From Cystobasidium ongulense (taxonomy: Eukaryota > Basidiomycota > Cystobasidiomycetes > Cystobasidiales > Cystobasidiaceae): a stretch of 64,000 nucleotides of DNA. Shown in pieces: positions 18,296 through 45,300 of this stretch (positions are counted from its first letter, which is position 1; each line of letters begins with the position of its first letter). The translations under genes were made by a program, and so were the position numbers. The notes under the pieces are model-generated. The model worked only from the letters and a program-made list of their open reading frames with translations. It was not told the DNA's origin and ran no database searches. The stretch spans positions 1,191,307 through 1,255,306 of the forward strand of contig BQUP01000006.1 in the NCBI GenBank assembly GCA_022835595.1, in the 5' to 3' direction.

Positions 18296-20624
18296 ATGCC
18301 CGCGTCAACGCCCATGGCTGCGTCTACTTCAAGCGCGAGCTCCATGGCCAACGGAGCAAGCACTATCAAACCCTCTGCACCTGCTACTCCAGCGCCTTCG
18401 ACATCTGTACTCAGAGGTACTCCATCTCTATCTGAGATAGCAGCATCTATAAAGTGAGTATCCAGCTTCCAAATATCTCAGCTGCAACGGCGTTTGACGG
18501 GTTTTGAACTCAAACTTGCAGATCTCACCCTGAAAAGTGGGCGAGCATCAGAAAGAAGAGTATCGCTTCCGCAGATAATACACTCGTTCATCCTATTCCT
18601 ACTTCAACTGTAATGGGCCATTCTAAATCTCTCGACCCAGCTTCTTTGACTGGCAGTTTTGGTGGCGCATCTCACACGACTGTGGTACAGTCTGCCCACA
18701 TGGTACACACGGCTAGCACTTCAACCGACATGTCATCAGTCTCTGCAGCGTCCAATGCGGACAGTACTGCCTTGAGCAGCTCTTCAGAAGGTGAGTTCAT
18801 CAACCCGTCCAGACGTACGTGACGCGCTTCTCTGTCACGTGCCGGTCCTTCTGCAGCGTGACATTGAAAAGCTGATCAAACGATGTTCTCCACCTGATGC
18901 TGCTTGTTCTCTTTCACTCTTTCCGTATTGCCAACATCTCTCTTTCATCCTTCGCATCGCCCTACGTACCTTAATTCGACAGCTCTGCGGCTTAGACTCA
19001 CGGCACGTCTGGCAGCAGCGCCTGCGCCGCTTTTGTCCCGTTCTCATTCTACGAATGCTATTGTTGAGTCTTGTGGATCATTTATCCTATCGCCTCCCTC
19101 TACTCTCAATGGAGATCCGCTTCCAGGCAGTAGCCTGCCTGCCTTATCAAACTTACAGACTACGCTCGCTAGGCGAAGCAGTGTCTCTACCTCTACAAGC
19201 CAATCTCTTCCATCTCGTGGCGGACTGCCATCGCTAGAAGCTATCGAAAAACGCTTTGCTCAGAAAAAGGAAAAGGAGAAACACTCCTCTCCATCTGCTG
19301 TGATTCCCTTCAAGGACGTTAAGGGTGAATCACCAGCAGTTCCCTCAAGCTCTGTATCGAATGCCAACGGCTCTTCCCAAGTGACTTCTGCTGTGAAACT
19401 AGCTACTCCTTCCGATGCAAGCAAGGAGAATATCGATCCCAAAACTGGAATCGATGCAAGCCGAAGACCCAGTCTTGCAAAAATTGAACCTGCCAGCGTA
19501 GCAATGTCAAAAGCTAGCTCGTCCTCTTCATCTGCCGATTCAAGCGACCCGCCTACCACCCCAACCGATATCACTCCGCCCTTGAGCGAGAAAGGAGCAC
19601 CTAAGAAGGAACACCCTCTTCAGCACCAGTGGACCTTGTACTATGATTCTCGCAATACAACAAGAGTAATCCCTGCACCATCAAATCCAGCAGCACCCAC
19701 TTCTGTCGGACATCCAAATGGACCTGGAACAGGCAGCAAGCAGCAGTATGAAGCTGGTCTTTCAACGCTAGCAACCGTCGATACTGTTGAAAGCTTTTGC
19801 AGACTTTACAATTGGTTGAAGAAACCTGGTAAATTGGGTCAGAATGATAATATGCATTTCTTCAAAGACAATATCCTACCCATGTGGGAAGATGAGAATA
19901 ATAGGAAAGGGGGCAAATGGACTATCTGCCTCAATCCAAAGATACTTAATGTCAGAGAAATGTTTGACAAGTTTTGGATGTACCTTTGTTTCGCTCTGGT
20001 GAGTCTCTTTCTGCAGTTGCAGTCTTGAGAAGTCGCAAGCTGATATGATATTTCCGTCAGATTGGAGAGGATTTTGAAGAAAAGAATGACCTCATCTGCG
20101 GAGTGGTGGTCTCTGTCCGTCCTAAGACATTCCGCTTTCAAATATGGCTAAGGGTAGAAGAAGATATTGCATCAATCAATGCAATTGGCAAGAATATCGT
20201 TCGAATTCTCGAATTGGAAAATCCTACAACCGGCGCACGCATACCCGGCATTTCGCTTGATTTCTCCTATCACTCCAAGCCAACTCCACCAGTTCAGAAG
20301 TTCCTCCATATTCCAGCTACTCCAGTGCCTGCTCCCTCTTCTGCTTTCCAAGCTCATCCAGGTGCACTTGTTGGATCTGCGTCTAGAGGCTTGACGCCAT
20401 CTGGTACAATGAGCTCTCTTTCCTCCGTAGCACGTTCACCTGGATTCGGTACGGCTAGCAACGCATTCAACAGCATCGGACTCTCTCGAGCTGTCTCGAT
20501 GAACGCTATCGCTTCCAAGCTCGCTTCTGGTAGCTTACCGGAACAGAGTTCAGGCAACACTGGATCTGTCAATTGGCGCGAAAGATTGGGGCCAGGTAGT
20601 CGAAAGAGCTCGCTAGCTGCCTGA
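18296..20624 (+). CDS. eIF4E-family cap-binding protein with long extensions
   Basis: This is a cap-binding translation factor family member. Exons 18296-18453, 18522-18790, about 18983-19998 and 20061-20624 give about 668 residues, where typical eIF4E has about 200-250. The core starts near residue 335 with HPLQHQWTLYYDSR. It continues through VDTVESFCRLYNWLKKP, FKDNILPMWEDENNRKGGKW and GVVVSVRPKTFRFQIWLR, keeping the cap-stacking Trp residues and the acidic residue after the second. About 330 Ser/Pro/Ala-rich residues precede it and about 150 disordered residues follow. Two short N-terminal blocks (SEIAASIKSHPEKWASIRKK) look conserved. The acceptor of exon 3 is uncertain; two AG sites within 50 bases downstream keep the frame. 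The core reads as the class II/4E-HP side of the family rather than canonical eIF4E, an inference from memory. Confidence 0.85.
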
Positions 20625-27630: not shown

Positions 27631-30600
27631 ATGAGCAAGACACCCTCGGCATCGTCGACCTCAAACTCTGCCGCAGCCGCTTCCAACGCCAACACCGCTT
27701 CTTCTTCAAACAAGACTGGAAAGCCTCAGCAGCAGCAGGGAGGCAATAACAATAACAACGCATCATCGAATTCCATTGGCAAGCAAGGTGTAGCTGCCAA
27801 CGGAACTTCGACGAGCTCTCAAACAAACTCGAATCTGAGCTCTTCAAATAATGCTACGGCCAATCCAGCAGTAAATGTCCCAGTTGCTGGAGCCGTAACT
27901 TCAAATTGGGCAAAAATCGCTGCTGGAAACAAACCTAGCAGCTCTGCTTCGAGTCGTGCTCAGACTCCTAGTGCTACCACTTCAAGTGCGGTAGCGAACA
28001 ACAGGAGCAGCTCGAATTCTGGTCAGTCAAGACAGCAGGAATCTGCTGCCTCAGGCAATCAGAATGTCCAGCAGCAACCCCATAGCAGAAAGCCATCTGC
28101 TGCCGTTCACGCTGAACCGTTCTCGGTCGCTGCAGGTGGCAAAGTTCCTATCAAGCCAGGTAAGCTTGGCGACCTATTCAAAGAGCCTGGCATTAGACTA
28201 CAAAACTGATTCCAATGGAATACTTTTCTTTGTCTCCACAGCCGGGGAAACCCCTGGCATAGCCTTTGGCAGCCTTGCAGATTCAAACGCCACGCTCTCT
28301 TCGTCACCCGCTCAGCGACCCCCAATGTCAAGCGCCGAACAGCGACCTGCACAATTTGGGTCACTCGCAGCCTCGACAGCAGGAAGCACCAGTGTTCCAG
28401 CCAATAATGGTAACGCTGCTAAATCAGCTGCTGCACCTCCTGCAAGCACGGTCACCAAAGCGAGTCTGGCAAGCTTGGATTTCAATAAATTCTTCCAACA
28501 AGGAGATGAAAACGAAGCAAGCTCTGAAGCCACTCCCGCGGCTAAAGCTGCTCCAACTGCTCCAGCCGGAAGTCAACAGCAACAGCAGCAGCAACACTCG
28601 GGCCCTGCAAACTTGCAAGCTTCAACTGCTTCAAGCGCTCAGGGACATCCTGCTTCCCGCCGTCCTTCAACCTACGAAAACGCTTCTTCCATGTCACCTA
28701 GGATGCTCGCTGCTGGACTCCCAGGTTCAGGCACTCCAGGTGCAGGTGGACTCCCGCACCATATCAATGCTCGGCCTTTCTCTCCCGCTACGATGAATAA
28801 GGGCATGCCAAATCCTCAAGCTGCCGCTTATTATCAAGGACAGATGGGCATGCCCGGCTCACCTTCCACTTTCATGCCTGGTGGTCAACTGCCTGGAGGC
28901 GCATACGGTGGTGCTCCACCTCAAGGTGCGGGTGGATATCCCGGTGCTATGCCAGGAACTCCAGGTCCCGCTGGGGCTAAAATGAATGGTGTCCAAGGGG
29001 CTGCTCCATCTGCCGGAGGACCCAGACAGCAGACGACCCCGTATATGCAGAACAGAGCTGTGCCACCTCCCAATGCTGCTCAGCATCAGATTCATCATCA
29101 GCACAATCGATCCATTGGTTCGGGATCACCTAGACCTCTTCATGCTTCCGCTCCTGGTCAGGCTACTCCTCAGCCTTTCTATCCCGGACAGCCATACGGA
29201 AGCCAACAATGGGTACGTCTTTTCGCTATCTCCTGCCTGCTTCTTGAGGCTCGCAATACTGACTATTATAACAACGTAGGTTCAGCAATATCCCGGGTAT
29301 CCTCCTTATGGATATAATCAATATGGTCAGCAAGGTTTCTACGCTCAAGGGCAACAGCCAGGACAATCAGGAGGTCGCCCTCCACTACAAGCTCAACACT
29401 CATCGCAGCAATCTATCACTTCCTCTCCTGTTCCTTCGATGAGACCCAACCTTTCGACTTCTGGAAGCGGATCTTGGCCACCTACTTCATCAGGTGAAGG
29501 TCCGTCGGGCGCTGCGACACCTACAACTTTCCCATCTAGTGCTGCGTCTCCCGCGCCCTCTATGGCTTCCGCCGTTGGAGCTATGCCATTCCGACCTCCT
29601 CATCTACCTTCCACCCCTTCGCATCCTTCCATTGCCCAGACGCTACATGCTTCGTCTCCTTCATTCACACCTTCGCATTCTCAATCGCCAGCCTACGGTG
29701 CTCCTATCGCTTCTCCCGCAGGTGCCAGCCTGAACGCTGGTGCCAGCAGCTTCGCTTTCAGGGCACCTGTGTTAGGTAAAGGCCCCTCGAAAGCTCTTCA
29801 GATCAAGAAGCCCCCTTCGAAAGAAGAAAAAGAAAAGGCAGATAAGGAGAAGGCCGAACAAGATAAAGCTGCTCAAGACAAGGAAGATTCTCGCGTCGCT
29901 GAGGACAAGAAAGTCCAAGACGATAAAACCGCCTCCGACAATGCTGCTTCTGTTGCAGCTGATAAAAAGGTGGCAGATGCTAAGGCAGCAGATGCTCAAG
30001 TAGCAGCCGATGCTAAAGTAGCAGATGATAAAGCAGCTGCTGATAAAGTATCTGCTGATAAGGCGAAGAAGGAACAAGAAGAGCGTAATGCTCAGGATAA
30101 GCTTGACATCGAAAAGAAAGTCAAAGAGCAGGAAGAGGAGGCCAAACGCGTTCGCGAACAGAAGGACGCTGAAGAGAAAGCTCAGAAGGAAACTGAAGAG
30201 GCTGAAAAGACGCGCAAGGAGGAAGACGAAGCTCTTGTTGCCAAGGCCGCTGAAGAAACTAAGCGAGTTGAAGAGGAAGTCGCTCCCGCCGCTCAGGCAG
30301 AAGAGAGTCAACCTACGACTGCCGCCCCGTCAGGTACCACTACACCAGCTGAGGCTTCCGCTACTGCTGGTTCTTCCAAGCGTCCCGAGCCCCTCGATCT
30401 TTCTAAATCAGCTGCCGTTTCGGACGAAGTCATCACTGCCCCCGGCTCAGCTCTCAGTCATGCCCGAATTATTGAAGATCTCACTGCCGTTCCTTACCCT
30501 GGTGAATTCAAATCCCCCGACCCAGCTCTTAATCAGGATGCCAAGCCAGGCAAATTCCGCTACGACCGGGACTTCCTCATGCAGTTCATGGCTATCTGCA

Positions 30601-33088
30601 AAGAAAAGCCAGTTCAACTGCCTTCATTGGAGGAACTTGGCATGACGGACGAGGGCCCACCGTCGGCAGGTGTTGGAATGCCACGCTCCGTTTCACACGG
30701 TGGCAAATCGCGCACTGGTCCTGGATCCATTCCCTCCACACCAATGAGCGGAAGAGGCATGCCTCCTGCCATCAATCGAGCCGTCTCATCCGGCTTTGCT
30801 GGAATGGGTAACTTCAGCGCACCCAACCCAGCCGCTCTTTCCTCGGCAGAGCGATTCGCAGCTGCCAGCTCCGGAACTCTTCCAGGGAGACCAATGGCAC
30901 GCACACCAAGCACTACCGGGGGGATCCCTATGGGCGGACCCAGCGGACGAGGTGGAGACCGCAGGAGTGGACGAGGCACAAGACGTGGTCCTCCTGTGCC
31001 TACTCCGTCGCAGATTCCTTCAGACTTTGCCCCACTTGAGCTCAGCGAGAACAGATGGACACCTACTGTCCAAGTTCGGTCGAGCAAGGATCAACCAGAC
31101 GACTCCCCCGAGGTTGTCGACAGGAAGGTCAAAGCTCTTCTCAACAAGCTCACCATCGACAATTTCGATTCCATCAGCAAGCAAATCCTGGACTGGGCCA
31201 ACAAGTCTGCCAAGGAGCAAGATGGACGCATACTCAAACAAGTCATTGCGCTCATCTTCGAAAAGGCTACAGACGAAGCTACGTGGTCTGCTGTGTACGC
31301 CAAGTTATGTGCTTTCCTCGACAGCTCACTCTCAAACGAAGTCGCGGATCAAAGTATCAAAGAACCGAACGGGCAGCCTGTCGCTGGAGGTCGACTTTTC
31401 CGACGATACCTGCTCACACGGTGTCAATCCGATTATGAGAAGGGCTGGGCTCAGAAAGAGTCTGCTACAGCCGCCGCCAAGGGCAAAGCTGCTGACGATA
31501 AAGCAAAGAAGGAGGCTATCGAAAAAGAGGCTGAAGCCGCCGGAGCCGACAAAGAAGCTGCAATTAAGGGTGCAGACTTCTCAGAAGAGTACTACGCCGC
31601 TGAGAAAGCTAAGCGTAGAGGTCTTGGTCTTGTTCGATTCATTGGAGAATTGTTCAAACTGGGTATGCTCAAGGAGCGAATGTGAGTTCTTTTTGCATAA
31701 TCACAATAAAAGCCTTTGACTGACATGTAACCAATCTTTTCAGCATGCACGAATGTTTCAAGAAGCTCTTGGCAGACCTCGACACACCGGAAGAGGAGGA
31801 CATCGAGTCACTCTGTCGGTTGTTCCTTACTGTTGGCCAGAAGATCGAAACGACGGGCAAGGATGGACACGCACTCATGAATATCTACTTCATGCGGTTG
31901 CAAGATATCGTCAACAAGAAGACTGTTTCTTCGCGTCTTGTTTTCATGATTCTCGTAAGTCGTACTCTTATTATCTTGTCGAATTTCGTCATCTGACATT
32001 GTTCTTGTAGGATATCATGGATGCGCGAAAGCACGGCTGGCGTTCAAAGGCTGCCCCTGCAGGCCCGAAAAGTATTGCAGAAGTTCACCAGGATGTGAGT
32101 AGCCAAACCCCATTGTTGTGGCATTATGATACTTGGTGCTGATGTCATATCTGCTGTTTAGGCTGCTCGTCAGCGCGAAGAGGAAGCTCGTCGCGCGAGT
32201 CAAGGCAAGGGTCTGCCTTCTCGTATTCCTATGGAGCGTGGCGGTTCGCGACGTGGAGCAGGCCGCGAAGCTGGTCCAGACGGCTGGCAGAATGCTCCAG
32301 CACCACGTCCACAAAAAGCCGGCGATCTTACAACACTTGGCAAGATCAGATCAAGCAGTGGATCGCCTGCTCTTGGCATGCTCGGCAAGACTGGTGGTGG
32401 TGGTCAGAAAACACTTGCAAAGGAAGAGAATACGATCACTTCGAACGCTTTCGCGCTGTTGGCCGCTGGCGGTGGTGAAGAAAAGGAATACGAGGCTACA
32501 TCGCCTCCTGCCGAGACTGCTCGCAGAAAACTCCAACTACAGCCCCGAACCAAGGCAACAGAGAACCCTGACGAAAAGTCAGCCGGGGATGATGAAGAGG
32601 AGGGCGAAGTCAAGGAGGACGATGCTGAGCCAGCTGAGGCCGGCGAACTGGACGAAGCTACCAAGCGGTCCATTGATAACTCTGTACAGGAGTATTTGTC
32701 CGTCAAGATGGTCGACGAAGCTCGACAAACATTCGAAGCTCTACCACCAGCTCATAGAGGCGCTCTCGCCAAAGCTTTCATTGAAAAGGCCGTCGGTGGC
32801 AAAAACGATGTTGCCGCTACAGTGCTCAATCTGTTCAAGGCTCTCGGAGACGCTCAGACTATACCTTCAGACGTCTTCCGCGAAGCCTTCGTGCCAACCA
32901 TCACAGACTTGGAAGATCTTAGTCAAGATACACCAATGGCCTGGTCGCGTGCCGCCAACCTTCTCAAAGCAGCCAAGCTTTCTAAGGAGGACGTCGAAGT
33001 TCTACAGCAATCGATGATCAGTAACGAGGATACTCTAGAGGAAACCCAAAATCGACTGATGGAAGAATTTGAGAAAGCTTCCCCATAG
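27631..33088 (+). CDS. TIF4631: Translation initiation factor eIF4G
   Basis: This scaffold joins eIF4E, eIF4A and eIF3 to recruit ribosomes to capped mRNA. Exons 27631-28159, 28242-29212, 29280-31681, 31744-31954, 32011-32094 and 32162-33088 give 1707 residues. The N-terminal 600 residues are rich in Ser, Ala, Gln and Pro. A strongly charged Lys/Glu/Ala/Asp helix region runs over about residues 680-830. The eIF4E-binding motif YDRDFLM (YxxxxL-hydrophobic) starts at residue 928. The MIF4G domain spans about residues 1115-1400 (RKVKALLNKLTIDNFDSISK, LVRFIGELFKLGML, LVFMILDIMDARKHGW). The fungal RNA-binding RS-like stretch SRIPMERGGSRRGAGREAGP follows. An MA3-type helical region, which most ascomycete yeasts lack, forms the C-terminus (VQEYLSVKMVDEARQTFEAL). 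The gene lies 7 kb downstream of the eIF4E-like gene. Confidence 0.95.
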
Positions 33089-38627: not shown

Positions 38628-41600
38628 ATGAGTGATTCGTCAGATGATGAAGAAGAGGACGAGCTGGAGGAGGAACGACAACAACGACAACCGAAGAAAC
38701 GCATCTCACGCAGTCTAAGAGGTATGTGTATCAACAGTCAAGTCAACATCAGTAGTCTATTACAATCAGAAGCTGATTCGGTCAAAAATTGCCGTTCTTT
38801 TACATCTCACTTCATACACCATCTCGTTTCCCAGCTGGAGTTATATTCCCAGTCGGCAAGATTGAAAAAAGCCTGAGAAAGGTAAACGCGGAAACTCTTA
38901 CTTTCTACTTACTGAACATCATAGCTGAACATACTCTCATTGCCTTCCCATCTTCCACCTTTCACCTTCCACCTTCCACCTCCGCATCTTCTCGTCGTTT
39001 CTTTGCCTCGTCCAGCTTGTGAAAGAGCGGCTCACAGCTGGCGCAGCAGGTGTGTGTGTACTTGGCGCATCTTATACATCATATGTCCCCTTCAGCCTCA
39101 TGTCCCGCCTTGAACCCACTGCTGATCCTTAAACCGGTTACAGTATATCTAGCAGGTGTTTTCCAATGTAAGCGAAAAGTTGCCTTCATGAACCTGTCCT
39201 TTTTGTCACAGTTCAAAGCTCACCCATCTGTACTTTCATGTTCGAACGGCTTCTACCTCGTTCAATTATATGCAGCTCTTACGGCAGAAATAATCGAATG
39301 TGCAGGTTGCATAGCTGCCATCCACGAGGATAGACGTATTAAACCTCGTCATATCATGTTAACTATCGAAGGGGATGACGAGTTTCGTGAGCTGCTAGGG
39401 CATGTCGTTATTCCAAAATCTGGTATGCAACAATTCTCTAATCTTGTGGTTTTTATCTTATGAACAATGACTGAAAATTTTGCCAATCTTCTGCAGGTAG
39501 ACCGGTGGGGTAGGTCCTTTCGTGCTGTGAATGACAAGGTCACAGTTACAATCCAATGCACTCTGTAGGATGTTGTGTTGATTCAACTATCCTTGCATAA
39601 CAGTGTTCTAGCACCATTGCATCCACCCACCTCTCGTCTCCGATTATCGAAAGAACGCAGACAAAAATTAGAAGAAGCGGATGTACGAAAGTTCAAAGCA
39701 AGAGTACGAAGTAAAAATAACGATGAATGTGAAGATGATACAGATGAGTATCCACCTACTTCTGATATAGATGAAGAACGATATTTTCCTAGAGATTATA
39801 AAATGTCAAGTCCAAAACCTTGGCCTTTACCAAAACGATTTTCAAATATTGCTAGTATTGGAATAAATTCAGGTTATCAAATTCATACTAAGAAGAATCA
39901 AAGAATGCCTTCTCCACCTGAAGAAGATTTATCACCATCTCCATCACCTGTTTCACCACCTCTGCCTACTTCTTCTAATCATACCCCACCTCATCGTTCC
40001 ACACCTGATTCCGCAAGTCGTTGGAGAAGAGGTTCTTCATTACAGCGAACGAACAAAACAGGAAGGAAAGCAAGAGAAAGATCACCTAGTGAAAGAGGGG
40101 ATAGTAAAGCCGGAAGCAGCAGTAGTGACTCAAATGACGAGCAGAACGGTAGACGTGACGATAAAAAAGAGAAGCAAAGGCGAAAACCAAACGTATACGA
40201 ATTTAGGCCTGTAGAGCGGAAGAAAGCACCTCTTTCACATCCTACTACTTTGAGAACGACAGAATCTGATTTCGAAATTGGCTCGCATCTGCGGAGCAGT
40301 CCAGTAATTGATGAGGATAATGATTTCTTCAACGACTATGACGCGGGTGGAGATGGAAACAATTGCGATGACAACGACAACGATGATGACGACGATCTAC
40401 CGGACTTGCCATTCTCCAATCAGTCTACTGGATCGCGGCAGAAAGAAGTACAGACAAAGGAAAAGAAGAAACAAATATCTAGACGGAGATCATCAAGCAC
40501 CGTCAGTCTCGAGAAATCACCGCCAAGTTTGCCATCAACAGATAGAGACAGTAGTGATTTAAGTTCATTTAACCGAAAAGTAAGGGACACCGTTGATGGA
40601 CGAGGCCTTCCATTTACAGATCGACACAGAAGAAAAAGCAATAGTAAGGGAAACGAGGAGAAGCAGCGACGAAGTGGCACAAAGATAACAAGACCATCTT
40701 CGAGATGGGGCAAGGATACAAATGATGATAGCGACGTCGTATCCCAATTCAAGAATTCAGTAATATCTCGGAATACGTTACTCCAGGAGGTAGATAAAGA
40801 TATGAGCGATGCTGGCGATAACAATACGACTAGACAGAAGAGCCGGATAGATAGCTTTGCTTCTGATAAAATTCCGCAAGACAGTGTCGCTATCCGAAAA
40901 ATGCAGCTATCCCACCGTACCATGCTGGATACTAGACGGAGGCGTTCAATGACTCCCGGAGATTCACAATCACACAAACGAGACCTGTGGTATAGTGTAG
41001 AAAAAAGCAGAAAAGTCAAGTCCTATACTAGTAACATCCGACCCGCCAGAGCTACTGCCAAAGGCGTACTCGTCCTTTGCAACCGTTTACCAGAAGCTGA
41101 AACTCGTTCTCCTTCCTCTCATGTCTCGAGCATAATACGACCAAGCTCACACACAAGTATGCGCAAAGCTCCTAAAGCTACAAACCGCGATTTAAGTCGG
41201 TTGGATACTCCTGCCGTGCCGGACATGGATTTGTCTCAAACCACTCAAGCATCACTTTGTTCTCGGTCAGACTCTAATGGTTTTGAGAGGGCTTCACATA
41301 CCCTCAGTGCAGGAAATCAAGCATTACAAAGGCAAAGGTCTAGGTCTGCCTTGCTGAAATCGAAAAATCTGCCATCAAACAGTTTTAGAATGCAAGACTC
41401 CTCGTCCCAGGAAGAACATAGTGACCGGACCGAACTGCAAAGTGATATAATGGAGTTGGACCATCCCGATACGGATGGCACGGATGGCGATGACGAGAAA
41501 GAGTCGAAAGCGAGGAGCGAAACAGCTGAGCTAGAAGACGTAAAAGACGATACAGCACGGCAATCGTCTCCTGAGCTAGAAGAGCAGCCGCTTTCCAAGC

Positions 41601-42301
41601 GACGACCGCCTTCGACCACGAATGTTGTTGCTCCTGCGGCATCACTTCCTTTTCCCACCCGAAAGTCAGCTCTTTCAACGTTTCAACTCCGCTCGCAGAG
41701 CGTACGCTCATCTACAGGGCTCGAAAACGAATCTCAGGTAGAGAACGCGTTATATGAAGCCGATTCCATCGCATCTGCTGAAGCCAGAGAGGAAATATTA
41801 CAGAGCGCGGAGGACTCCAATCTGCGCTCTTCCCTGCTGGACAGCAGCAGATCCGGATCTTCAAACCGCCCTGCGGCTCAACCAGGATCAGCCAGGACGC
41901 TTAATCTACTATCATCGTCGCTTCCTCGCTTACTCCCGTCGGATATCGACTCTGACATCGAGCTGCTCTCTAGTCAATCGCCAAGAACAGCGAGTACACC
42001 TTCGAGCAATCAGCCGCGCTCTACAGCCCGTGTTTCAAGTCGGGCGTCGGTAGCAACGATTCCCGTAGTCGATCCTAACATTATCGATATTTCTAGTGGA
42101 GAGGAGGAGGACCTTTACTTGAATACGAAGGACGACGTGATTTTTGTCAAAGAGGAGCGCCCTGACAATCCAGCGACTGACAATACCGGCAGTCAGACCG
42201 CAGGTAGTCAGACTTCGACTCGAGAGAGAGGAGCTCAACTCAGTGCATCCGATTCTGCAAATTCGGGAGACAAAGAAACCCAGGAGTCGGTGGAAATATG
42301 A
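38628..42301 (+). CDS. Histone H2A-fold protein with ~890-residue C-terminal tail
   Basis: Exons 38628-38721, 38835-38881, 39016-39049, 39144-39167, 39276-39422, 39497-39509 and 39604-42301 give 1018 residues. Residues 1-17 are acidic (MSDSSDDEEEDELEEER), followed by KKRISRSLR. The H2A core follows at about residues 28-125: RAGVIFPVGKIEKSLRK, then KERLTAGAAVYLAGVFQ, SLTAEIIECAG, RRIKPRHIMLTIEGDDEF, and ELLGHVVIPKSG leading to GVLAPLHPP in the docking region. Acidic-patch positions equivalent to E61, E64, D90 and E92 are kept, E91 is Asp, and E56 is Gln. The loop after LRK is one residue short. The tail is Ser/Arg/Asp/Glu-rich and disordered. It carries NIIDISSGEEED (from about residue 945) and VKEE at 968-971. 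All six introns lie in or near the fold; the tail is one exon. Not macroH2A: no macro domain is seen. Function unknown. Confidence 0.88.
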
Positions 42302-42399: not shown

Positions 42400-45300
42400 C
42401 TAAGATGCCCTTACACGCCTTTTGACTTTCTTCCAATCGATAGCTGCGCGTTTGTTGACGGAGATTCGCTCTTTCGCTAGATTCACGAGGGGTACCATGG
42501 AAGGCCTAGAGAATGGGTTGTTTGAGTAAGCATCTGATACAAATATGGGAATCTACAAGGGAAAACGATGCCCACCTCCCGTGTGCGCAAATAAATGGAA
42601 AGTCTGTTTCGGCCAGTCGAGACATCAAAACTTGACTTTGCGCTACCGATAGCTCGTCGTTGAACATGATTGCACCTGTGTCGAACAATCAGCCTTGAGC
42701 CTTTCTATTGCGAATTTGTCCCCTCACCTCTGCACGCTTTAGAGTTGACCAACTCTGTTAAGACGACTGGCACGTTCCTCATGGTTGTGCTCCAGCTGAC
42801 CTCCCGGTTTGCCTGAGCTCCAGTGTCGCGCTCCTCAGCGTGTGATAATAAGCCCCGAATGACAGTTTGCAACAGCCTATCATCTGCAAGCAGGCGATCT
42901 GCTACAATCTTGGGTACAGTCTTCACTGTAACTTGGCTGAAGCCTGACGCTGACTCGAGGAGATTGCAAATTGATAACGATAAACTAAAGCCCAATCGTG
43001 AGAGCCATGGGTGGCTGCTTCTTAGATGCACGAGCTCCCTTGCAGTCAAAAGTACGGCCTTCGGCTCGACAAGGGTTATTGTATCGACCTTGACCATATT
43101 ATACTGTCGACAGTATGTGCGAAAGAAGTCTTCCACGCGGACGCGTTCATCGGCAGCATGTTGATCTACCAAGAGAAGTTTCGTACCATTATCGGCCGGA
43201 CACGAAAACAGTAGGAATTTGGTATCGATTTGAGCGATAAAGCCACCCCAGTGTAGCATTTCTTTGTCGATTGAACACTGGATAGAAAATGTACCGCCAG
43301 CTTCTGCATGAAAATGCTCCGGACGTGGCGTCTGTTTCGCCTGAACGGACCGAATGGGCTTTTGAAGAGGAAGGAAGACTGGATTAGACCACCCAGTCAG
43401 AATTTCTTGCAGCCATGCAGGCTTGTCAGACGTCTGCTGAAAATGTCTGTCGGATCTCGTCAGATGCTTGACGTCTATGAGCTGAACAGCCTTATGTGGC
43501 TGCCTCGCGGTCGTTGGTAGTGGGCTACTTGACAATTCTGTCTCGGCTGGGTCTCCTTTCGTATCAGAAGTCTTCGCTGTCGTTTGGTCTGCTAATGTTT
43601 TGCGAGACGGGGTGTGCTGTTCTTGGAGTGTGGCTTCTTCAATCGAGGGAAGGTCTGGGATGTCAAGCGATTGATTCCGGTATGCTAGCATTGCTGCTTG
43701 CTTATGACGCTTATTTGGGTTAGCTTGTTTGGATGGACTTGGATGTAGCTTGTCTGGACTACTCTTGGTATTTTCGATGACGTTAAGAAAGTTGTGTGTC
43801 CGCAAAAAGCTACAAACCAATCCTTTGATGGTATACTTGATGGATTCTTCGTCCTGTCTACAGCATGAGCTTACGATCTACTGGTAAGAAACCTGGCACT
43901 TAGTACTTACTCGCAGATGAGCAACTTGCTTATTCGGTTCAATGGCAAATTCGACTTGGTCTTCAGGCATCCATATAGATAAGCAGAACACCGGAAAGCG
44001 ATTGACTTGCTTTCTCGGTGATTCTGTGTGTTTGAGTAAAGGCCCAGGTCGAGGCGAGGCATCCCTATCTTGTTGACGACCGTCAACTTCTGCCCGTTTT
44101 GCAAAGCCGCTCCGCTCGAAAAAATGGTTGACATGTCGATGTAAATCACAGCTTGTGATGCATCGTCTATTGACGTCTGTCAAAGCGATCATTCGGTACG
44201 CTTTTCTCCACGCCAAGCTGCATGCTCCACTTACAGATGAATTGCGTCTGCTTACTATGAGTGGACTGCAAAGAGATAAAACCTGATATATTGATGTTAT
44301 CATGTCTACGGTTGATACAGTCTATATTCTATTCGAACAAGGTATCAGAGAAAACTCGTGTCGGGCTTCGACAGGCGGCTGAACGTACTTTGACAAGATG
44401 TTTCCCGTACAATGAGGCTATGCGGTCAGACATGCTTGAAGAGGCTGTCGTAGTCAAAATTCTGCCTGGTATAGCATTGCTGTCCGGTCGGCCCAAGTCA
44501 TAAACCTGAAATGCTACACTGTGATTGATGATTGCCAAGGCCTCTAGATGTCTTCTAATCTGGTTTAGAGTTGCTGCGGCGAACGATGTCGACGATTCTG
44601 CTTGCTTGCGTCGAACAGGCCACTTGTAGAATAGATCACGCACGATGACACTTGTGCCAGCTGAAGAGCGATGTCCATGCTTCGCAAGCCCAACATAGAG
44701 ACGTTTGCCACCCTGCAGAATCATCAGCAACAGATCAGTAAGCAGCTTTACTATTAGTGCAGCGACCTTATTGAGTTGTGCCTTACCCGTATAATGGAAG
44801 TGTACGTATCCGAACTGGAAGAATGCCTTGTGGTGATTTCAACGAGCGACATGTCGGCAATGCTGCACAGGGCTGCATCGGGATGTCAGAGCTAGTTCTC
44901 TCGGTCCGAACAATTGATTAGATCTACCTTCTCCTCGGTAGCCATACAGACCTGCATTCAGGCTGTTCTTCGCACGTCTGTGTTTTGATGTATCTTCAGC
45001 CAGGCATCACCACCTCGATCAGCCTGAGGGACCAGAACACCTTTCTCTGCACGGCTTGATGATAGACCTACGATAGCGATCCCCAACCAGACTCAAATTG
45101 TGCAGGTCGATGCCAACGCCATTGTCCGTAACGCGGCATTCCCAATTTGTCAAAGAGACGGCGACTTCGATGTTCTTCGCCTGCGCATCAAGAGCATTCT
45201 GAACAAGCTCGACTATGCAAGAAGGCAGCGTCTGGATGAGAAAGGTCGACCTGAGCTGATTCCTCGCCTCTTGGGGGAGCTTGCGAATGTCTCCAGCCAT
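42400..45300 (-). CDS. MLH3: DNA mismatch repair / meiotic endonuclease MLH3
   Basis: This MutL-homologue ATPase pairs with MLH1 and resolves meiotic double Holliday junctions as crossovers. Minus-strand exons are 45300-45072, 44993-44928, 44872-44787, 44712-44389, 44328-44235, 44176-43911, 43853-42728, 42675-42576 and 42505-42400, giving 798 residues. The GHKL ATPase motifs are ELVQNALDAQA, RVTDNGVGID, DRYHTSKH and GLYGYRGEALCSIADMS. ISGFISLQ and FIYVNRRC belong to the transducer domain. The C-terminal nuclease motif DQHAADERVRVE (DQHAX2EX4E) is intact, followed by ACRGAIMFNDEL and FICAHGRPSMVPL. A catalytically active enzyme is therefore expected. The intron at 44329-44388 is chosen because it alone restores the frame into ISGFISL. 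The gene ends 98 bases from the converging H2A-like gene. Confidence 0.95.

Follow-up and report, generated by a model that had tools for sequence, protein, structure and literature searches.

The window analysed here is a stretch of 64,000 nucleotides from the basidiomycete Cystobasidium ongulense (assembly GCA_022835595.1, contig BQUP01000006.1, positions 1,191,307 to 1,255,306 of the forward strand). Between window positions 38628 and 42301, on the plus strand, it holds a predicted gene of seven exons whose spliced frame is open over 1018 codons. The upstream exons are predicted to encode a fold of the histone H2A type, and the last exon a tail of 898 residues. The six introns of the splice model are 74-134 nucleotides long, and all are GT-AG. 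The exons are as follows.

38628 to 38721, plus strand: exon 1, acidic N-end, MSDSSDDEEEDELEEERQQRQPKKRISRSLR
38835 to 38881, plus strand: exon 2, AGVIFPVGKIEKSLRK, H2A alpha-N/alpha-1
39016 to 39049, plus strand: exon 3, LVKERLTAGAA, L1 loop; ends within codon V49, phase 1
39144 to 39167, plus strand: exon 4, VYLAGVFQ, start of alpha-2
39276 to 39422, plus strand: exon 5, alpha-2 through alpha-C, SLTAEIIECAGCIAAIHEDRRIKPRHIMLTIEGDDEFRELLGHVVIPKSG
39497 to 39509, plus strand: exon 6, a 13-nucleotide microexon, GRPVG
39604 to 42301, plus strand: exon 7, a single 2.7-kb exon with the 898-residue tail and the stop codon

The translated protein starts with an acidic stretch followed by a basic stretch, similarity to H2A covers residues 24 to about 128, and the C-terminus reads TQESVEI. 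A phmmer search against the sequences of solved structures gave an H2A chain as the best PDB match of the fold, over query residues 24-128 and with an E-value of 7.3e-23. In all, 207 distinct PDB sequences matched below 1e-3, and the best 60 of these 207 are all named H2A, H2A type, H2A.J or H2AX. Since the E-value spans the product of five exon junctions, the similarity is not due to chance. The fold was aligned with three H2A and two H2A.Z sequences. Identity to the canonical H2A of the same genome is 50 of 111 aligned positions (46% over 109 in BLASTP), and identity to human H2A.Z is 40 of 105 positions. By the numbering and residue roles of canonical H2A, acidic residues stand at five of the six acidic-patch positions (56, 61, 64, 90, 91 and 92), namely E61, E64, D90, D91 (for E) and E92. 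Basic residues are found at aligned positions 29, 32, 35, 42 and 77. Judged by its sequence, the product of these exons is a diverged but recognisable H2A histone fold. The original prediction had stated that the H2A core and most acidic-patch residues are kept, and both statements are borne out.

The tail (residues 121-1018) lies in one exon and has 16.5% Ser, 31.6% charged residues and a net charge of 0. A charge-hydropathy line classes the tail taken whole as disordered (-0.13) and the fold as ordered (+0.28), and the tail is probably mostly disordered. No Pfam domain was found in four of four tails scanned, at E-values up to 0.1. A PDB match to the tail with an E-value of 0.95 is regarded as chance. 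In a search of the organism's own genome the tail did not turn up a second time; two further matches reach E-values of 0.27 and 0.75 only. Thus the earlier description of an in-frame path into one long, domain-less, charged and Ser-rich exon agrees with the present data, and its coordinates hold; the tail length of about 890 residues given at that time is to be replaced by 898.

Proteins homologous to the tail were found in a protein search that scored the 7999 candidates with the most shared words. These are P0001 (60% identity over 82%), P0003 (33% over 95%) and P0004 (36% over 33%). In addition, P0002 (source jgi) is a near-identical tail fragment and was the one match among 99 candidates. 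A search with words from residues 20-170 returned P0001 alone among 931 candidates, and of 105 pattern matches in viral contigs none encodes a relative. Because homologues exist the tail is not a chance sequence, and its membership in a conserved family makes an annotation accident unlikely.

Alignment of the window tail with P0001, P0003 and P0004 (P0002 was excluded) displays 157 invariant columns among the 852 columns, of 898 window positions, that are covered by at least three sequences. The invariant columns form seven blocks; 2000 column shuffles gave 0.5 blocks on average and never more than 4. The test statistic was the count of blocks, because the threshold for a single block, a window of 12 columns with 7 invariant, is weak by itself: 433 of 1000 shuffles contain at least one such window. 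By these alignments the tail represents a conserved family, newly recognised here, for which no known domain was identified. The seven blocks and the acidic/aromatic segment are listed below.

39644 to 39700, plus strand: conserved basic block LSKERRQKLEEADVRKFKA at the start of the tail
39998 to 40054, plus strand: conserved block with WRRGSS
40310 to 40414, plus strand: acidic/aromatic segment with the end DDDDDLPDLPF; LP(D/E)LP in four of four aligned tails
41210 to 41266, plus strand: conserved block with DLSQTTQ
41555 to 41608, plus strand: conserved block with SPELEEQP..RR
41666 to 41770, plus strand: longest conserved block, RSQSVRS.TGLE..SQ.E.ALY.AD
42068 to 42118, plus strand: SUMO-interaction-like block NIIDISSGEEE, in three of four aligned tails, those that reach the block in frame
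42122 to 42175, plus strand: SUMO-interaction-motif-like (SIM-like) DDVIFVKEER, in the same three of four tails, with the sole psi-K-x-E site found in the tail

The SUMO-interaction and SIM labels are motif names that we take to fit NIIDISSGEEE and DDVIFVKEER, and the acidic/aromatic segment presumably resembles the acidic-aromatic segments of H2A-H2B chaperones.

Important for the linkage of fold and tail is the 5′ end of exon 7. Similarity to P0001, which comes from a different source, begins at the first residue past the 39604 acceptor, and the two aligned residues just before it differ. P0001 is identical to the window at 27 of the first 30 and at 56 of the first 66 tail residues. The tail frame has no ATG from the preceding stop up to tail residue 67. 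Since the first 66 residues are ATG-free yet matched by P0001, they would be translated by way of an upstream exon, barring a non-ATG start. The H2A exons could supply the reading frame that enters the tail; no systematic search was made for alternative upstream exons that might do so.

The genome (19.77 Mb in 19 contigs) carries three canonical H2A genes (L017-L019), all on contig C4 and each adjoining another histone match, which is presumably H2B. The variant shares the fold with these genes and differs from them in its acidic N-end, its tail and its surroundings, in that a genome-wide search with the Histone profile detected no H2B-like match beside it. The canonical H2A of L018 has 141 residues and an H2A.X-like end, ASQEV; by eye, the copy in L017 ends in KAATAE and has no SQ site. 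In the L018 gene an intron interrupts codon V49 in phase 1, and the variant has an intron at the identical site and in the identical phase, at the end of exon 3. This shared intron fits a duplication of an H2A gene. It should be noted that intron hot spots exist in fungal H2A genes, according to PMC3029354.

The explanation favoured here, to which we give about an even chance, is that the locus encodes one protein of 1018 residues, with a diverged H2A fold and a long, mostly disordered tail, that serves as an H2B-paired docking platform on chromatin. The sequence itself shows the fold, an uninterrupted frame, a tail present in single copy, and that this tail and its short motifs are conserved; from these we infer the remainder. 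An H2A gene would have been duplicated and then either fused to a tail exon or extended by the growth of one. On the basis of H2A biology, the fold would pair with H2B and put the protein on chromatin, and the tail would project from there as a flexible docking platform bearing kinase-type and SUMO-type motifs. WRRGSS, DLSQTTQ, VKEE and the C-terminal SIM-like pair may be regulated by phosphorylation and SUMO, and the tail motifs may recruit partners wherever the variant is deposited.

Several observations in the fold, at the junction and in the tail weigh against this explanation. In the fold, the Pfam Histone profile scores 22.7 bits against the whole protein, under its curated gathering cut-off of 26.4. 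The acidic-patch position E56 is Q, and K74 and K75 are replaced by E and D. The L1 loop is one residue shorter, about four additional residues precede the GVL of the docking segment, and the N-end is acidic, in contrast to the basic N-end of nucleosomal H2A. Because of the acidic N-end, the altered docking segment, the E56Q change and the shorter L1, incorporation into nucleosomes is not to be assumed. As far as the residues can tell, the kept acidic patch and the DNA-side basic residues favour placement inside the nucleosome, and the changes in the docking segment, with the acidic N-end, favour H2B held outside nucleosomes. The three roles named in the original prediction, a nucleosomal variant, a chromatin anchor and an H2B-binding chaperone, may each apply.

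The same fusion may thus be considered as a non-nucleosomal, H2B-binding scaffold or chaperone, whose fold grips H2B or another histone-fold partner and whose acidic/aromatic tail shields the dimer. We judge this reading unlikely, and it is the most probable of the alternatives. It is consistent with the acidic N-end, with the altered docking segment and L1, and with the acidic segment and its nearby aromatics, where LP(D/E)LP is present in all four aligned tails. However, a pure chaperone would have no need of the basic DNA-side residues and of the acidic patch, most of which are kept, and acidic stretches are common among disordered proteins.

At the junction, the splicing is predicted, and the model is not unique. 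Mechanical alternatives number 86 with one intron, of which 23 retain the fold as far as HVVIPKS, and 1877 with two; the model presented is a judgement on the best sites among them. In favour of a link between fold and tail, two routes lead from the donor GTATGC at 39423 into the tail in frame, one by way of the microexon to 39604 and the other directly to the AG before 39612. Thus the microexon is dispensable for the fusion, as the splice from 39422 to 39612 is also in frame. A direct join of 39422 to 39604 meets a stop. The microexon route yields a GVL that aligns with the GGVLP of H2A. P0003 and P0004 match the first 66 tail residues less well, at 22 of 53 and 29 of 42 aligned positions respectively, and the listed proteins of both begin inside this part. 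Fold and tail together are documented in one genome only.

If intron 5 (39423-39496) is retained, the frame adds MQQFSNLVVFIL and reaches a TGA stop at 39461-39463, which gives a product of 128 residues. The gene may then yield two products, this H2A-sized protein by intron retention and the long form by splicing, with fold and tail as partly separable isoforms. The length close to that of an ordinary H2A is in accord with such a scheme; however, by eye the added piece is unlike the H2A docking domain, and a reading with intron retention is possible for most genes. We consider two products rather improbable.

Alternatively, the fold exons may belong to one gene or transcript and the long exon to another, the fusion being a modelling error. 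Passage of the preferred junction through a 13-nucleotide microexon and the many mechanical alternatives, those with the whole fold included, would be compatible with this. Against it stand the similarity to P0001 from the acceptor onward over 66 codons that lack an in-frame ATG, and the presence of two frame-keeping splice routes from one donor, and it is judged very unlikely.

In the tail, the last 220 residues include a part without clear disorder by composition, and the charge-hydropathy windows that start at residues 801, 851 and 901 come out as marginally ordered (0.01 to 0.15). The tail has 11 SQ/TQ sites compared with 8.8 in shuffles (p 0.24), which is not an enrichment, and the idea of an SQ/TQ cluster was dropped. 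In addition, two of the four related proteins depart from the window frame, P0001 close to its C-end and P0002 at about tail residue 108. These changes may be assembly errors or real loss. The near-identical P0002 leaves the window frame at window position 39930, by sequence error or as a broken allele. A decaying histone pseudogene joined to an unrelated neutral open frame would agree with these two frame shifts and with the strong divergence of the fold from canonical H2A, but it is judged highly improbable, given that fold and tail are open throughout 1018 codons, that P0003 and P0004, at 33-36% identity, have an open tail with the blocks conserved, and that the frame changes are possibly assembly errors.

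The chromatin-anchored fusion was also compared with H2A.Z. The variant resembles it in AAVY and in G at position 89, which are two of 18 diagnostic sites. At these sites, defined by a reference of only three H2A and two H2A.Z sequences, six residues are of the H2A type, two of the H2A.Z type and ten of neither, and an identity as H2A.Z was rejected. According to PMC12459048, H2A.Z is defined by LEYLTAEVLELAGNA in alpha-2, by an L1 one residue longer and by a docking domain one residue shorter than those of H2A. At the alpha-2 site the variant reads FQSLTAEIIECAGCI; its L1 is one residue shorter, its docking segment is longer, and the one-residue deletion of H2A.Z is absent.

Searches of the genome with human H2A.Z and yeast Htz1 as queries revealed no separate H2A.Z gene, and the matches are the canonical genes and the variant. 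The pattern GDEEL gave 19 matches, compared with 14 for the reversed control, and the frames were read by eye. One of the loci (L044, G000:C4:1507514) has an H2A-like piece of about 16 residues, IRGDEEFNRLGHTIIA. It is regarded as chance because it is antisense in a GFAT-type gene (by eye) and flanked by stops, and no further H2A piece was seen in the locus. In a check for SWR1, the YL1 N-domain was found below the cut-off only, in an acidic low-complexity frame, and YL1_C exceeded its cut-off solely in a frame taken for Ies6. The BCNT search was silent, as was its control. The lack of H2A.Z with the two queries and of a YL1 N-domain above the cut-off would suggest loss of the H2A.Z/SWR1 axis. 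A more far-reaching proposal is that the variant represents a new histone class, in which an H2A fold anchors a giant signalling scaffold, disordered and conserved, to the chromatin of a lineage without a findable H2A.Z, and that it is perhaps the sole specialised H2A and partly replaces H2A.Z in marking sites. We regard this proposal as doubtful.

Histones with additional regions are found in other organisms. The H2A.Y of Tetrahymena is a leucine-rich repeat (LRR)-bearing H2A and is similar to the variant in that an H2A is linked to an additional region. PMC3380720 mentions H2A.Y by name, with no description in the passage concerned. MacroH2A also has an H2A fold with a long C-terminal addition attached by a linker. 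There, however, the addition is a folded macro domain, described as the sole globular fusion and as confined to animals (PMC8015243), whereas the 898-residue tail of the variant is without a Pfam match. The H2Abd, H2Abd1 and H2Abd2 variants of bdelloid rotifers likewise have unusual C-terminal tails. According to PMC2642717, these extend 28-43 residues past LLPKK in otherwise near-canonical H2A, in contrast to the long tail and diverged fold found here. H2A.X is marked by SQ[D/E][F/Y] at the extreme C-terminus (PMC12459048), and the variant has TQESVEI at this place. The algal H2A.N, H2A.O and H2A.E are lineage-specific H2A variants with altered tails too; in the passages of PMC12459048 that were examined, H2A.N has an elongated N-terminal tail, the tail changes are modest, and no long disordered C-tail is described.

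A literature search for long-tailed or fungal H2A variants found no comparable case, with subscription journals mostly outside its coverage. This is in keeping with the original prediction, which knew of no described histone of such a form. H2A variants as such are known, and the novelty lies in the disordered extension, which is both extreme and conserved. An H2A with a giant tail could serve as a chromatin-bound scaffold. If the proposed reading is true, a thousand-residue H2A with a disordered tail conserved between species would mean that a core-histone fold can anchor a signalling scaffold on chromatin. It would also provide a natural system for the effects of very long histone tails on nucleosomes and condensates, and since H2A.Z is apparently missing from this genome of about 20 Mb, it would serve as a test of possible H2A.Z replacements.

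Other features were observed near the gene and elsewhere in the genome. A CENP-A-like H3 was recognised by eye at G000:C5:536942-537439 (L004, L006). Just downstream of the variant, on the minus strand at window positions 42705-43877, is a MutL_C frame that is MLH3-like by DQHAADERVRVE. Further upstream, eIF4E exons (18898-20624) and an MA3-domain gene (27631-33088), which we infer to be eIF4G-like, lie on the plus strand and together span about 14 kb.
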